Shown piece by piece: positions 740-7,515 of a stretch of DNA of 41,876 bases. Within the stretch, counting starts at the first letter, position 1; every line of letters starts with the position of its first letter. The position numbers were made by a program, and so were the translations under genes. The notes under the pieces are model-generated. The model searched no databases and was not told the origin of the DNA. It saw only the letters and a list, made by a program, of their open reading frames with translations. This DNA comes from Myxococcus sp. (GTDB taxonomy: Bacteria; Myxococcota; Myxococcia; Myxococcales; Myxococcaceae): positions 1-41,876 of the forward strand of contig JACSRE010000107.1 of NCBI GenBank assembly GCA_014879945.1, read 5' to 3'.

Positions 740-804
740 TGCGGACGAGCTGGGAGTAACGGGACGTTCGCTCAGGTGCACGCAAGAGACCAGCCCTGTT
801 CAGG

Positions 805-1011
805 TCAAGCCAGGGGCCGTGACGAGGCCGCGCCGCATAGCTCGTCGCGCAGCAGCCTGCCCTGCTCCGACGCGGCGCCGGGAGGCCCTTCGCCAGCACC
901 TCGGGCTCGAGCGGGTCGAAGCGCCGGTGCGTGGCGATGACGCGCAGCCCGCGCGCGTTCGGCAGAGGTGGAGCCGCCGGCCGTTGGCGCCGAGCGGGAG
1001 CGCGTCACCTG
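805..1011 (-). pseudogene. Possible decayed or frameshifted small reading frame
   Basis: The 321 bases between the phosphatase start and the next gene's stop contain no intact gene I trust. On the minus strand one frame gives a protein-like stretch (NARGLRVIATHRRFDPLEPE, then VLAKGL) with almost every third base G or C. It is preceded in frame by a stop (TGA, about 1009-1011) with no start codon between. Past about position 880 the best third-base pattern moves to another frame (AASEQGRLLRDEL), which ends in TGA at 805. This suggests the tail of a small gene broken by a one- or two-base indel, or a sequencing error. No family recognised. Chance high-GC patterning is the alternative. Confidence 0.25.
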
Positions 1012-1060
1012 CCGGCCGTCTCGGCGTTCTCGCAGCCCCTGGGCCCCATGACGTGAGACG

Positions 1061-2038
1061 CTACCCGCGCACCAGCTCGAGCTCGATGCGCCCGTCGAGC
1101 TTGAGCGCCAGCAGCGCGCCGGTGAGCTGCTCTGCTTCGTGCCGCGTCAGCAGGTTCCGAAAGCCGTCGCCGTCGGCCACCTCGGCCTCCATCACCGCGC
1201 CGCGCTCGAGCCACCGCATGAGGCCGGAGCCCAGCAGCATCGGCACCATGCCCTTGACCGGCCACCGCTCGGCGCGGGCGCTCAAGAGGGCCGCCAGCTG
1301 CGCGGGCTTCGGGCGTCGATCGCTGACGCCCTCGTCTGGGTAGAGCACGGGGGGCGCGAGCAGCGCCTCGTCGGTCGAGTCATCGAAGAGGTAGCCGTAG
1401 CGCGTCGGCACCCGGCCGCTGGTGGCGAACAGCAGCGTCACCGCGGCGTCGGGGGTGGGGCGCCGCAGGTGGAGGATGCGCTGGTCGCCGGGCATCACGC
1501 GCACCATCAGCTCGACGAGGGGCCTGGCCTGCGCTGCCTGCCGCGCGACCCGCGCCGTCACCGTCTCGATGACGTGCTCGAGGGCCTCGGCGATCGCGCT
1601 CCGAGCGAGGTCGGCGCGACGGTCGAGCTCAGCCCGCGCGGCCTCGAGCCCCCGCTCCGCTTCGGCGCCGAGCGCCTCGAGCCCCGAGCGCCTGGCGAGC
1701 GCCTCGGGGCCTGCGCCGGGCGCGACCGCGCGAACGGCCCCCAGGAGCAGCTCCCCCTGCTGCTCGAGGCGCCGGCGCTCATCAGCGAAGGAGCGCTCGA
1801 GCGAAGCAGCCTCGGCGCGCAGCTCATCCCACGCCGCGTAGGCGGCCTCGATGGTCTCGGGACGGGACGCGAGCGCCGCGGCGGCGCTGCCGGTGGCGAG
1901 CGCGGGAGGAGGCTCGATCAAGGCCCGAGCGACCGGCGTATCGACGGGGGTGTCGCGCCTCAGCGCCCCCGGAGGGGTGGCGCGGAGCGGGTTGGACTTC
2001 GAGGGTTCAGGCGTCGCCTTCTTCTTCTTCGCCGCCAT
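1061..2038 (-). CDS. Hypothetical protein, central coiled coil, last gene of envelope operon
   Basis: A 325-aa soluble protein not assigned to a family. It has a Lys-rich N-terminus (MAAKKKKATP), a Pro/Ala-rich linker to about residue 55, a long Ala/Glu/Arg-rich stretch (about 65-185) typical of coiled coil, and a C-terminal region (about 185-325) of mixed helix and strand. No signal peptide or membrane segment is evident. The gene begins 12 bases after the stop of the preceding YtxH-like gene and is the last of six leftward genes, so it probably acts with the small membrane proteins made from the same message. The coiled coil suggests multimerisation or a scaffold; that is inference. Confidence 0.75.
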   Translation of the reverse strand: MAAKKKKATPEPSKSNPLRATPPGALRRDTPVDTPVARALIEPPPALATGSAAAALASRPETIEAAYAAWDELRAEAASLERSFADERRRLEQQGELLLGAVRAVAPGAGPEALARRSGLEALGAEAERGLEAARAELDRRADLARSAIAEALEHVIETVTARVARQAAQARPLVELMVRVMPGDQRILHLRRPTPDAAVTLLFATSGRVPTRYGYLFDDSTDEALLAPPVLYPDEGVSDRRPKPAQLAALLSARAERWPVKGMVPMLLGSGLMRWLERGAVMEAEVADGDGFRNLLTRHEAEQLTGALLALKLDGRIELELVRG

Positions 2039-2050
2039 GAAGCCCGCGCG

Positions 2051-2341
2051 TCAGACCGGCTTCGCAGCCGAAGCGGCGGCGCCGCCGTTGCTCGCGACGG
2101 GAGCGCCCTTCTGCAGCTTCTGCTTCACGTCCTGGCGGAGCTCGCGGCCCGGCTTGGGCGCCAGCATCAGCCCCAGGCCGACGCCCACCAGCACCCCCGC
2201 CCCGAAGAGGGCCAGGGCGGGCACCAGCTTGTCGCTCGACGAGCGCCGCTCCTCGAGCCCGATCAGATCGAGCAGATCATCTTTGTCCACCTCTGCGAGC
2301 CGCTTCAGGTTCTTGAGCACGTTCGACGCTCCCGCCATCAT
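2051..2341 (-). CDS. YtxH-like single-span membrane protein
   Basis: A 96-aa protein with an acidic/basic N-terminal helix (about 1-38), one hydrophobic glycine-rich span (about 39-62, including FGAGVLVGVGLGLMLAP) followed directly by a PKPGRELRQDVK amphipathic segment, and an Ala-rich tail. A glycine-rich span followed by an APKSG/APKPG-like motif and a coiled tail is characteristic of YtxH-type general-stress proteins; the assignment rests on that pattern only. Its ATG overlaps the TGA of the preceding gene (ATGA at 2341-2338), so translation is probably coupled. The second Met codon, three bases on, is an equally possible start. Confidence 0.75.
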   Translation of the reverse strand: MMAGASNVLKNLKRLAEVDKDDLLDLIGLEERRSSSDKLVPALALFGAGVLVGVGLGLMLAPKPGRELRQDVKQKLQKGAPVASNGGAAASAAKPV

Positions 2342-2721
2342 GACGATGACTCTTGGGGTTCTTCTTCTTCAGCCGGTTCTTCCTGCTCCTGCGACGCGAG
2401 CACCTGATCGACCGCGGCCTCGGCGACGTCGAGCAGCCGGTCCCGCACCGCGGGGATCGCGGCGAGCTTCATGCCGATGCGCAAGATCCGCAACGTCGTG
2501 GGCGTGAAGAGCCCGCCGCCCAGCAGGTAGCCAACGCCCACCGCGGCCGCCACCATGCCGTAGGGCGACTTCTCGACCTGCTCGGTCAGCCCCACCGCGT
2601 CGGCGACGCCGTTGAGCGCCGAGTTCGCGTCGCGGAGCGCGTCGGTGACCTGCTCGCCGAGCTCTCGGGCCACCATCGGCCCCGCGCCCTCGAGCACCTG
2701 CTTCGCCGAGGGCTCGCTCAT
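2338..2721 (-). CDS. Hypothetical single-span membrane protein with acidic tail
   Basis: A 127-aa protein when started at the ATG that overlaps the upstream stop (ATGA, 2721-2718); a start 15 bases further up is possible but less likely given the overlap pattern in this operon. Residues 1-50 form an Ala-rich amphipathic helix, about 52-75 are a glycine-rich hydrophobic stretch (MVAAAVGVGYLLGGGLF), then comes an amphipathic region and a strongly acidic end (EEPAEEEEPQESSS). The fold is the same simple type as its neighbours: helix, glycine-rich span, charged tail. No family assigned. It probably works at the inner membrane with the other products of this operon. Confidence 0.7.
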   Translation of the reverse strand: MSEPSAKQVLEGAGPMVARELGEQVTDALRDANSALNGVADAVGLTEQVEKSPYGMVAAAVGVGYLLGGGLFTPTTLRILRIGMKLAAIPAVRDRLLDVAEAAVDQVLASQEQEEPAEEEEPQESSS

Positions 2722-2960
2722 CGGCGCGCCGCCCAACGTCCGACGAGGAACCCCAGCGCTGCGGCGCCGAGGAGCACCGTGCCCGGGTTCCGCTTGATGA
2801 ACGCCTTCACCTGCTCGTTCACCTCGGTGGCGTGCTCCAGCGCGTCTTCGAGCTGCGGCGCGAAGCGGTCTTGCAGCTCCTTGAGGCCCTCAGGGAGCTG
2901 GGGCCCGTTCGGTGTCGACTGCGTCTCGTCGGCCATCGTCGTCCTTTCCGTCGAAGTCAT
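2718..2960 (-). CDS. Small DUF883-like membrane-anchored protein
   Basis: An 80-aa protein if started at the ATG overlapping the upstream TGA (ATGA, 2960-2957). The open frame continues to 3050, but that extension is the antisense-like basic sequence expected of an overlapped frame. A charged helix (about 18-50) is followed by KAFIKRNPGTVLLGAAALGF and a terminal GRWAARR: the arrangement of ElaB/YqjD (DUF883) proteins, where an amphipathic helix leads to one C-terminal membrane span ending in Arg residues. E. coli members are stationary-phase inner-membrane proteins reported to bind ribosomes. The similarity is to the pattern, so the family label is tentative. Confidence 0.7.
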   Translation of the reverse strand: MTSTERTTMADETQSTPNGPQLPEGLKELQDRFAPQLEDALEHATEVNEQVKAFIKRNPGTVLLGAAALGFLVGRWAARR

Positions 2961-3208
2961 CTCCGGCTCCACAGCCGGCCCAAGAGGTACCCGGCGACGA
3001 ACATGCCACCGATGGTGAGCGCCGGGTGTTTGCGCACGACCTGGCGCCACTTCCCCACGGCCTCGAGCCGCTGCTCCACGCCTGCGAGGCTGGCCTCGAG
3101 CCGCTCGCGCGCCGCCTGGAGCTCAGCCCGCACCTGGGCCGGCGTCTGGCCTCGGAGCGCCAGGCGGCTCTCGGGCCGACGGGTGAGCTGGCCAGGCCCG
3201 CCGCTCAT
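2957..3208 (-). CDS. DUF3618-like single-span membrane protein
   Basis: An 83-aa protein starting at an ATG that overlaps the stop of the preceding gene (ATGA, 3208-3205). It has an N-terminal TPAQVRAELQAARERLEASL segment, matching the short repeated-Arg/Leu helix that defines DUF3618, then a KWRQVVRKHPALTIGG linker and one hydrophobic span ending in GRLWSRR. The C-terminus closely resembles that of the next gene (GRWAARR), suggesting that the two arose by duplication or share a membrane partner. Function unknown; DUF3618 genes are often found beside DUF1469 holin-like genes, as here. Confidence 0.75.
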   Translation of the reverse strand: MSGGPGQLTRRPESRLALRGQTPAQVRAELQAARERLEASLAGVEQRLEAVGKWRQVVRKHPALTIGGMFVAGYLLGRLWSRR

Positions 3209-3579
3209 GGGCGCTCCCGCGAGGGGCTGAGGATGGCGGTGGTGGCCTCGAGCTCGGTCATCGACACCTGCATGGGCTCGCGCGTCTTCAGCTGGCGCGC
3301 CGCGAGGACGACGCCGATCACCCCGGCGATGAGGTTGATGAGGCCCACCAGGAGGAACGCGAGATCGGCCGCCATCACGCGCCGCAACGTCAGCGCCAAC
3401 GCCACGCACAGAAACCCGTAGCCAACCAGGATCAAGGGGGCGAGCGCGGCGATGACCGCCAACCGCACCCCCACGAAGCGCGCGTCATCGGCGAGCTCGA
3501 CGCGGGCGAGGCGGATGTGCTGGGCCGTCAGCTCGCTCAAGCCATCGACGACGTCGCGGAGCTGGGATCCGAGCGCCAT
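3205..3579 (-). CDS. DUF1469 / holin-superfamily III-like membrane protein
   Basis: A 124-aa protein with an N-terminal amphipathic helix (LRDVVDGLSELTAQHIRLAR), two closely spaced hydrophobic spans (about 37-63 and 70-94) and a short cytosolic tail. This is the architecture of PF07332 (DUF1469, annotated as phage_holin_3_6), widespread in bacterial chromosomes outside prophages. It is the first gene of the leftward six-gene operon, with an ATGA overlap to the DUF3618-like gene. No lysin or other phage gene is nearby, so I regard it as a housekeeping or stress membrane protein rather than a lysis gene. Confidence 0.8.
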   Translation of the reverse strand: MALGSQLRDVVDGLSELTAQHIRLARVELADDARFVGVRLAVIAALAPLILVGYGFLCVALALTLRRVMAADLAFLLVGLINLIAGVIGVVLAARQLKTREPMQVSMTELEATTAILSPSRERP

Positions 3580-4772: not shown

Positions 4773-5678
4773 ATGGCAGCGCGCGCGAGCGGTTCGGGGA
4801 CGATCAGCTTCGGCCTCGTCAACATCCCGGTGAAGCTGTACTCGGCGAACGACTCGTCGGCGAAGATCTCGTTCAACCAGCTGCACGCCGAGAAGAAGAT
4901 CCGCCTCAAGCAGCAGATGATCGACCCCGAGACGGGCGAGGCCGTGCCCCGTGAGAAGATCGTCAAGGGCTACGAGTACGCGAAGGATCAATACCTGGTC
5001 ATCGACGAGGAGGAGCTCGACAAGCTCGAGCTGACCACCTCGCGCTCCATGGACATCACCGAGTTCGTGCCGCTCGAGATGGTCGACCCGCTGTACTTCG
5101 AGTCGGGCAACTACCTGGCGCCCGAGAAAGGCGCCGAGCGCGCCTACGCGTTGCTGGTGCGCGGCCTCGAGGACATGAAGCACGCGGCGATCGCGAAGTA
5201 CGTCGCGCGGGGCAAGATGCACCTGCTGCTGATTCGCCCCATGAAGAACGCGCTGGTGATGCAGTACCTTCGGTACGCCGACGAGGTGAAGCCGCTGTCC
5301 GAGATCCCCATCCCCGAGGGCGCGACCATCACCGACGCCGAGCTCGGGCTCGCCCGTCAGTTCATCGGCAGCCTGGCCAAAGAGACCTTCGACATCACGC
5401 AGTACAAGGACGAGTACCGCGAGCGCCTCAAGGATCTGCTCGATCGCAAGGTGAAGGGCGAAGCGGTCGATCTGACGCCTGCGCCGGCGCCACAGGCCAA
5501 GGTGGTCGACCTCATGGAGGCGCTCAAGGCCTCGCTCGCCCGCTCTGGTGCGATGCCCGCCGCGACCTCGGCGCTTTCGGACGACGCGTCGTCCGAGCGC
5601 AAGCCGCCTCGTCAGTCCCCCAAGTCTGACGAGGTCGCCGACGCAGCGGGCACGAAGAAGAAGCGAAAGAAGGGCTGA
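4773..5678 (+). CDS. ku: Ku protein, bacterial non-homologous end joining
   Basis: A 301-aa bacterial Ku, which forms a homodimer that rings DNA ends and recruits the ligase LigD for double-strand break repair. The N-terminus (SGTISFGLVNIPVKLYSA) is the family signature, followed by the beta-barrel core with HAEKKIRLKQQMIDPETG, the VARGKMHLLLIRP strand and the YADEVKP segment, ending about residue 255. The C-terminal extension is disordered and ends in a lysine-rich tail (KKKRKKG), as in Ku proteins whose basic tail promotes threading and ligase stimulation. No ligD or other repair gene is in the window, so its partner must lie elsewhere. A 16-base palindrome overlaps the stop codon. Confidence 0.97.
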   Translation: MAARASGSGTISFGLVNIPVKLYSANDSSAKISFNQLHAEKKIRLKQQMIDPETGEAVPREKIVKGYEYAKDQYLVIDEEELDKLELTTSRSMDITEFVPLEMVDPLYFESGNYLAPEKGAERAYALLVRGLEDMKHAAIAKYVARGKMHLLLIRPMKNALVMQYLRYADEVKPLSEIPIPEGATITDAELGLARQFIGSLAKETFDITQYKDEYRERLKDLLDRKVKGEAVDLTPAPAPQAKVVDLMEALKASLARSGAMPAATSALSDDASSERKPPRQSPKSDEVADAAGTKKKRKKG

Positions 5679-5714
5679 TCGCTCGAGCGATCGTGGGGGC
5701 ACCACCCCTCAGTC
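5677..5714 (+). terminator. Palindrome and G/C stem after ku
   Basis: GATCGCTCGAGCGATC (5677-5692) is a perfect 16-base palindrome overlapping the ku stop codon, followed immediately by a GGGG...CCCC pair (loop GCACCA). It could fold as a hairpin at the end of the message, but no T-run follows, so termination, if real, would not be the classic intrinsic type. A binding site is an alternative. Confidence 0.3.
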
Positions 5715-5826
5715 GGCGTGCACACTGTTCACCCGGGTTCCCAGTGGGAGCGGCACTCCAATGAGCGAGATCAAGCCCTTCGAAGCCGCGCCAGCTGGCA
5801 TGCGCCTCGCTCTCTGCACTCACGCC

Positions 5827-7515
5827 ATGCTCAGGATCCTCTTCGCCGCGCTCGTCGTTCTGTTGGTCGGGTGCGACGGCGCCATCATCGGCGCGCGCGA
5901 CCCCGGCCCGGTCGGCATCGATCCCAGGACGGGTGAGACGCCGGTCACCCCGATCACCCCCGTCACCCCGACGGAGCCGGTCTCGGCCTGCACGCCCTCC
6001 CCGACGCCTGGCAGCGCCCCCATGCGCCGGCTCTCGCACGAGGAGTACACCCGCGCCGTCGAGGATCTGTTCGGGAACCCCACGCTGGCCCGGCAGGTGG
6101 CGACCGGCTTCATCACCGACTCGGTCTCGCTCGGGTACAGCAACGGCGCCCGCTTCCTCGATGTGAAGCCGGTGATGATGCAGAAGTACCAGGAGGCCGC
6201 CGAGACCATCGCGACCCAGGTCACCTCGGCCGCCAACCTGCCCCGCCTGGTGACGTGCCCCACCGCGCAGGGAGAAGCGTGCGCGCGCGCTTCGATTGAG
6301 CGGCTGCTCCTCCGCGCGTACCGGCGGCCGGCGGCGCCCTCGGACGTCGACCGCTACGTGGCCATCTGGCGCGCGGGTTCGACGATGAGCGACTTCCGCA
6401 CCGGCATGGAGTGGGTGGTGGCGGCGGTGCTGCAGGCCCCGAAGTTCCTCTACCGGCTCGAGGTCGACGAGCCCTCGGCCACGACGCGGGCGCTGGGGCC
6501 GTACGAGCTGGCGTCGCGGCTGTCCTTCCTCTTCTGGCAGGCCGGCCCCGACGACGCCCTGCTCGAGGCGGCGCGCACCGGCAGCCTCGCCACCGCCCAG
6601 GACGTCGAGCGCGAGGCCCGGCGCCTGCTCGCCGATCCGAAGGCCGAGCGGGTGTTCAACTTCTTCGAGCAATGGATGGACGTGGACGAGCTCGACGTTC
6701 GCCGCGACCAGGTCCTCTTCCCGGGCCTGCCGGCGAGCCTGACCAGCCTGCTGCGCGAAGAGTCGCGGCAGTTCGTGAAGGACTCGGTGCTCAACGGCGA
6801 CGGCAAGCTCGAGACGCTCCTCACCTCGCCCGTCACCTTCGTCAACGGCGACCTGGCGCGGCACTACGGCATGACGGGCATCACCGGCGCGACCTGGCAG
6901 CGCACCTCGTTCACCTCCGGCCTTCGCGGCGGGCTCTTCATGAACTCCGCGGCCCTGGTCAGCCACGACAAGCAGACCCGCACCAGCATCGTCAACCGCG
7001 GCCTGCGCGTGCGCACCCAGCTGCTGTGCCAGACGGTGCCCGCGCCGCCCGACAACGTGCCCCTCAACCTGCAGCCGATCAACGGCGAGTTCAGCCAGGC
7101 CGATCGCCTCGCCCAGCACCGCACCAACCCCAACTGCTCCGGCTGCCACGCGCTCCTCGACCCGCTGGGGGAGCCGTTCGAAGGGCTCGACGCCGTCGGC
7201 CGCGAGCGCACCCGCGACGAAGGTGGGCGGGCCATCGCGACCGCTGGCGAGATCGCCGCCACCCGCGACGCCGACGGCCGGGTCGCCAGCGGCATGGAGC
7301 TGATGCGCAAGCTGTCCACCAGCGAAGAGGTGCGTGAGTGCGTGGTGACGCAGCTGTTCCGCTTCAGCAACGGCCGGCAGGAGGAGCCCAGCGATCTCTG
7401 CAGCCGCCAGCGCGCGCTCGAGAAGTTCAAGGCGGCCCAGTGGAGCGTACGGGAGCTGTTCGTGGCGATGACCCAGACCGATGACTTCCTGTTCAAGCCC
7501 GGAGCCACGCCATGA
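5827..7515 (+). CDS. DUF1592/DUF1588-family lipoprotein (DUF1587-1595-1592-1588-1585 architecture)
   Basis: A 562-aa exported protein of the family first seen in planctomycetes with cytochrome-like domains. From this ATG the N-terminus is a lipoprotein signal with lipobox LVGC (C16). An upstream in-frame ATG at 5800 would lengthen the signal. Then come a Thr/Pro linker, the RLSHEEYTRAVEDLFG segment (DUF1587), RLLLRAYRRPAAPSD (DUF1595), the YELASRLSFLFWQAGPDD segment (DUF1592), a region with GGLFMNSAALVSHD and NCSGCHALLDPLGEPFEG (DUF1588) and a C-terminal DUF1585. The CSGCH at 437-441 looks like a CxxCH haem site, but single copies occur throughout this family and haem binding is unproven. Its stop overlaps the DUF1552 start (ATGA). 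Biochemical role unknown. Confidence 0.9.
   Translation: MLRILFAALVVLLVGCDGAIIGARDPGPVGIDPRTGETPVTPITPVTPTEPVSACTPSPTPGSAPMRRLSHEEYTRAVEDLFGNPTLARQVATGFITDSVSLGYSNGARFLDVKPVMMQKYQEAAETIATQVTSAANLPRLVTCPTAQGEACARASIERLLLRAYRRPAAPSDVDRYVAIWRAGSTMSDFRTGMEWVVAAVLQAPKFLYRLEVDEPSATTRALGPYELASRLSFLFWQAGPDDALLEAARTGSLATAQDVEREARRLLADPKAERVFNFFEQWMDVDELDVRRDQVLFPGLPASLTSLLREESRQFVKDSVLNGDGKLETLLTSPVTFVNGDLARHYGMTGITGATWQRTSFTSGLRGGLFMNSAALVSHDKQTRTSIVNRGLRVRTQLLCQTVPAPPDNVPLNLQPINGEFSQADRLAQHRTNPNCSGCHALLDPLGEPFEGLDAVGRERTRDEGGRAIATAGEIAATRDADGRVASGMELMRKLSTSEEVRECVVTQLFRFSNGRQEEPSDLCSRQRALEKFKAAQWSVRELFVAMTQTDDFLFKPGATP

Follow-up and report, generated by a model that had tools for sequence, protein, structure and literature searches.

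Operons and gene pairs that resemble the locus described here are known from several bacteria. In Escherichia coli, yqjCDEK holds the genes for YqjD and YqjE; YqjD and ElaB are reported to be ribosome-binding proteins that recruit ribosomes to the membrane, and either YqjD or YqjE arrests growth when overexpressed (PMC10746276). The YqjD-/YqjE-like genes of Pseudomonas aeruginosa, PA3040-PA3042, are induced by envelope stress and in stationary phase, and PA3042 carried the phenotypes in a clinical isolate; unlike the E. coli proteins, PA3040/PA3041 did not inhibit growth (PMC11302039), thus function may differ between relatives. In Actinoplanes, both members of the DUF3618/Holin-X pairs ACSP50_3381-3382 and ACSP50_4921-4922 are upregulated under sigma-H expression (PMC11205660).

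The window, by which we mean the whole 41,876-nucleotide stretch of Myxococcus sp. DNA that was analysed, carries six head-to-tail open frames, g1 to g6, on its minus strand (Table 1). All six are coding-like, with a third-position GC of 0.86-0.94, which in a GC-rich genome fits real genes. The preliminary description placed ATGA overlaps at the four junctions from g1-g2 to g4-g5 (3208, 2960, 2721 and 2341) and the start of g6 12 bases past the stop of g5; the overlap positions are exact and the spacing matches the open frames.

Table 1. Coordinates of the cassette genes and of other features mentioned in the text. Positions without a locus or genome label are those of the window; those of the putative lipoprotein genes are oriented coordinates.
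Feature	Position	Strand	Description
g1	3579-3205	minus	124 aa; PF07332 (Holin-X/YqjE family), two predicted spans
g2	3208-2957	minus	83 aa; DUF3618-type tail-anchored protein (predicted); ATGA overlap with g1
g3	2960-2718	minus	80 aa; predicted tail anchor, YqjD/ElaB-like glycine zipper; ATGA overlap
g4	2721-2338	minus	127 aa; unnamed family, glycine-rich span; ATGA overlap
g5	2341-2051	minus	96 aa; YtxH-like; ATGA overlap
g6	2038-1061	minus	325 aa; zero predicted spans; predicted helical hairpin (~63-181) and C-terminal domain
TAAGGT just upstream of g1	3591-3586	minus	Possible -10 element or part of a ribosome-binding site; tentative
Region between g6 and HAD hydrolase gene	780-1060		Visual inspection gave no convincing frame; may hold gene remnants
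Ku protein gene	4773-5678	plus	PF02735, 166 bits; Ku is part of bacterial end-joining repair
Multidomain protein gene	5548-7515	plus	DUF1587-1595-1592-1588-1585 domain set
CHASE2 sensor gene (example)	L039 9181-11748	plus	Adenylate/guanylate cyclase domain
Putative lipoprotein gene	L040 4381-4827
Putative lipoprotein gene	L045 6272-6739
Putative lipoprotein gene	L048 7431-7892
Putative lipoprotein gene	L058 7575-8042
Distant g1 or g5 relatives (examples)	G142:C1:8080906-8081274; G035:C12:231144-231335		Diverged second copies

Like the E. coli operon (L067), the cassette encodes small, predicted inner-membrane proteins within one operon, and in E. coli too a PF07332 gene (yqjE, compare g1) adjoins the gene of a tail-anchored zipper protein (yqjD, compare the tail of g3). 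The E. coli operon, however, is without DUF3618, YtxH, g4 and g6, its YqjD has a DUF883 N-terminal domain where g3 has no recognisable one, and YqjC and YqjK are unmatched in the cassette, apart from weak YqjK matches in 3 of 23 g2 orthologues. The combined gene content of yqjD, yqjE and yqjK is therefore not found, although the yqjE family is present. PA3040-PA3042 resembles the cassette in having a YqjE-type gene (compare g1) closely spaced with a YqjD-type gene in one operon, but it has three genes, and PA3042 is without a recognised domain. The Actinoplanes pairs comprise the same two families as g1-g2 under consecutive locus tags, whereas the remaining neighbours listed in that report are DUF4235 and BrkB/YihY proteins, and a zipper-g4-YtxH module goes unmentioned (PMC11205660). 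A protein search of plasmid records with g1 and a DUF3618 orthologue gave no match, so that the Actinoplanes report is the basis for a broader distribution of this pair. The pairs g1-g2 and YqjD/YqjE are already known, while no description of the full six-gene unit was found in the literature searched. The earlier statement that no such complex had been described thus holds for the full set, as far as the literature search reached, but not for its parts, since operons holding these have been described.

On its profile score g1 is a member of YqjE's family, PF07332 (65.3 bits against a cut-off of 28.4, covering profile positions 4-115 of 116), and E. coli YqjE likewise scores above the cut-off. 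A holin (lysis) role, suggested by the family name, was considered: no lysis gene was recognised beside g1, and overexpression of PA3041 did not inhibit growth. The window copy of g2 gave no DUF3618 match at E values up to 1, but 16 of 23 orthologues matched (best 4.1e-9), and g2 is assigned to DUF3618 through its orthologues only. g3 can be aligned, at 89.9%, with the final 33 residues of YqjD, and the C-terminal zipper profile DUF883_C is weakly matched by 5 of 24 g3 orthologues (best 0.0077), whereas the DUF883 N-terminal domain was matched by a single orthologue of the 24, at 0.055, and not by the window copy; a zipper tail of this kind is short and of low complexity, and matches to it can arise by chance or through convergent evolution. 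g4 matched no Pfam family despite a strongly conserved alignment of 25, in which the consensus span reads NPYGMVAAAxGVGYVLGGGLFT and is glycine-rich. g5 and all of its orthologues (23/23) match YtxH (PF12732), the window protein barely so (38.4 bits against a cut-off of 37.5); in the cassette, g5 is coupled to g4 and to zipper tail anchors. The family labels proposed earlier are thus upheld for g1 and, just above the cut-off, for g5, for g2 by way of orthologues, and for g3 weakly and in the C-terminal zipper alone, the N-terminal part of the DUF883 label having failed. Comparison of the cassette proteins with NCBIfam and PHROGs gave nothing useful, and profiles of g1 and g3 found no convincing match among solved structures.

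The five small proteins had each been credited with an amphipathic helix and a glycine-rich membrane span. The span was recovered in g3, g4 and g5, each with one hydropathy-supported segment (4, 6 and 5 Gly, respectively), but not in g1, which has two ordinary spans (hydropathy peaks 2.68 and 2.40), nor in g2, whose span has low hydrophobicity (1.18 in the window copy; orthologue median 1.38). The amphipathic helix survives for g4 only, the sole case among g1-g5 in which the best helical moment beats shuffled sequences (0.018); g1, g3 and g5 were indistinguishable from shuffled sequence (0.17-0.19), and g2 scored 0.98 with the whole protein tested, as no span was masked. The zipper anchors of g2, g3 and g4 are similar to one another (profile probabilities of 97.5% for g2-g3 and 92.5% for g3-g4), and on this similarity the three may be diverged relatives.

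g6 matched no Pfam family, and the best match of its profile among solved structures, the chloroplast ATP synthase b' coiled coil at 0.009, was not convincing. An AlphaFold model built from a three-sequence alignment contains a long helical hairpin (63-104 and 111-181; pLDDT ~67-83 over most of 71-160), which is the only credible part of the prediction; the C-terminal domain modelled alone reached a mean pLDDT of 33, and the full model is unusable beyond the hairpin. Relatives of g6 are present in 39 of 60 related genomes; these include a 'Myxococcales bacterium' and a metagenome assembly of 'Archangium sp.'.

The preliminary description would have given up a joint complex had the gene order been confined to one strain, and the order is in fact conserved across the family of the window (f1), here taken to be the Myxococcaceae on the strength of the two named genomes. 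In a close reading of 34 stretches of DNA, window included, g1 was present in 27 from this family, of which 25 have the complete, collinear set of six on a single strand and two are without g5 at the locus. When 146 genomes from the phylum were scanned, g1, g4, g5 and g6 were collinear in 60 of 65 Myxococcaceae genomes, that of the window included, and g2 and g3 lie between g1 and g4 wherever DNA of the family was read. The g5 and g6 matches are separated by more than 500 bases in nine of the 60 collinear genomes, with a maximum of 5.3 kb. Several of the five non-collinear genomes (G007, G024, G026, G027 and G135) are fragmented assemblies. The gene upstream may encode a PilZ protein, an M1 peptidase or a member of the endonuclease/phosphatase family, and the one downstream a HAD hydrolase or a CHASE2-cyclase; the block is retained while its flanking genes change.

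Some further genes were observed at or near these loci. A CHASE2 sensor with an adenylate/guanylate cyclase domain lies downstream of g6 in 21 loci and is frequent after the operon outside the window's genus. In three family members a putative lipoprotein gene (148-155 aa, with a cysteine after a signal-like start), for which no Pfam match was found, separates g4/g5 from g6, and a gene of the same type stands beside g6 in one genome of another family. Many Myxococcaceae genomes also contain a second, diverged relative of g1 or g5 far from the operon.

Conservation of the overlaps is a different matter. With junction starts assigned by rule (ATG and GTG for overlaps, ATG alone for gaps), 4-base overlaps were available in 6/6, 5/6, 6/6 and 6/6 members of the window's genus, window included, at the four successive junctions, while 4-base or 1-base overlaps were available in only 2/21, 1/21, 6/21 and 1/19 cases in the other genera of the family. 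There, g1 and g2 usually overlap by another length, mostly 11 bases, and the remaining junctions are mostly gapped, commonly by 30-60 bases; gaps between g5 and g6 outside the genus are unreliable, as many g6 there seem to start with GTG. Translational coupling of the whole chain is thus mainly a single-genus feature, and a fixed stoichiometry, which the preliminary description drew from strict coupling, does not follow for the family.

Outside the Myxococcaceae the cassette is found in parts. g1 and g2 occur together in G047:C65, G058:C256, G038:C45, G042:C131 and G051:C70, and g3, g4 and g5 together in G047:C64, G058:C286, G038:C9, G051:C50 and G036:C7. In G037, g1-g5 lie on contig C47 and g6 on a different contig. 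Separation of the pieces is certain in single-contig genomes: in G040, g2-g3-g4 lie at ~243 kb, g5 is found at 788 kb and the g1 matches fall at 2.5 and 3.4 Mb, and in G054 and G057 g3 and g4 are adjacent with g5 far away. Families f3 and f10 have g6 away from g1-g5, and f2 has it ~2 kb from g5. The simplest reading of these arrangements is that the Myxococcaceae operon joined a PF07332-DUF3618 module to a zipper-g4-YtxH module, with g6 arriving from an independent location; in the opposite and less simple history, which may also hold, an ancestral block was dispersed in other lineages.

The 150 bases upstream of g1 were scanned for a two-part site (TTG[AT]CN, 15-18 bases, TA[AG]G[GT]T, with one mismatch allowed per part). 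It occurs in 15 of the 27 loci, where shuffled bases would yield 2.5; related sequences enter this count repeatedly. The site looks like a housekeeping promoter rather than a stress one and suggests that the unit starts at g1. In the window itself a stricter scan upstream of g1 found no promoter, and of the two-part site only TAAGGT was seen.

We consider it fairly probable that the cassette is a composite inner-membrane maintenance/stress operon of the Myxococcaceae, in which two older modules, one of g1 and g2 and the other of g3, g4 and g5, were joined and g6 was added. This reading draws on the gene order kept in the family while the flanks change, on the separate modules outside it, on the membership of g1 in YqjE's family, of g2 in DUF3618 through its orthologues and of g5 in YtxH, on the induction of related operons by envelope stress, in stationary phase or under a stress sigma factor, and on the promoter-like site upstream of g1 in orthologues. 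The housekeeping appearance of that site counts against this reading, as do the lack of a recognisable ribosome-binding DUF883 N-terminal domain in g3 and the finding that PA3040/PA3041, unlike their E. coli counterparts, left growth uninhibited. In such an operon g1 would sit in the membrane by its two spans, g2 and g3 would be tail-anchored with their helical N-terminal parts in the cytoplasm, and g4 and g5 would contribute glycine-zipper spans, the zippers letting spans pack with themselves or with one another. The cytoplasmic helices may rest against the membrane surface or keep a cytoplasmic partner close to it, as E. coli YqjD does with ribosomes, and g6 may dock via its coiled coil.

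A more specific version, possible but unlikely, is a membrane scaffold peculiar to the Myxococcaceae, in which g4 and g6 would join the PF07332-DUF3618 pair to the zipper-YtxH proteins and organise the inner membrane during starvation or development; g6 would be its cytoplasmic coiled-coil arm. Alternatively, the cassette could be a mere shared transcription unit of envelope genes that act singly, their order kept by operon inheritance without a joint role. Modules that separate and rejoin, intergenic gaps that vary and a lipoprotein gene lying between g4/g5 and g6 in some genomes are all consistent with this, but g1-g2, g3-g4 and g4-g5 stay adjacent across distant families while the flanks change, and we regard it as quite improbable. 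A single heteromeric membrane complex of all six products, its stoichiometry fixed by coupled translation, was the earlier proposal and seems to us equally improbable. The overlaps in the window and its genus, the conserved order and the related zipper anchors of g2, g3 and g4, which could pack together, speak for it; yet the overlaps are not conserved in other genera, the modules lie apart in other families, g6 exists without g1-g5, and some Myxococcaceae are without g5 or g6 at the locus or have up to 5.3 kb between them. The products may still associate physically in a looser way. Finally, a ribosome tethering or hibernation module, in which the tail-anchored proteins would tether ribosomes to the membrane in stationary phase, much as is described for YqjD/ElaB, has the YqjD-like tail of g3 and the kinship of g1 with YqjE, encoded beside YqjD, in its favour, but is made improbable by the DUF883 N-terminal domain not being recognised in g3, by a zipper tail so short and low in complexity that its match may be chance or convergent, and by the literature surveyed, in which no ribosome link of YtxH, DUF3618 or g6 was found.

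Bacteria commonly have small proteins of the DUF3618, PF07332, YtxH and DUF883 kinds, and these are poorly understood. The Myxococcaceae unite these kinds in one unit, DUF883 by its tail only, whereas neighbouring families keep the two halves apart, and this contrast between families is a natural comparison of which partners belong together. With g4 and g6, the unit also provides two unnamed families for testing in a genetically tractable group.
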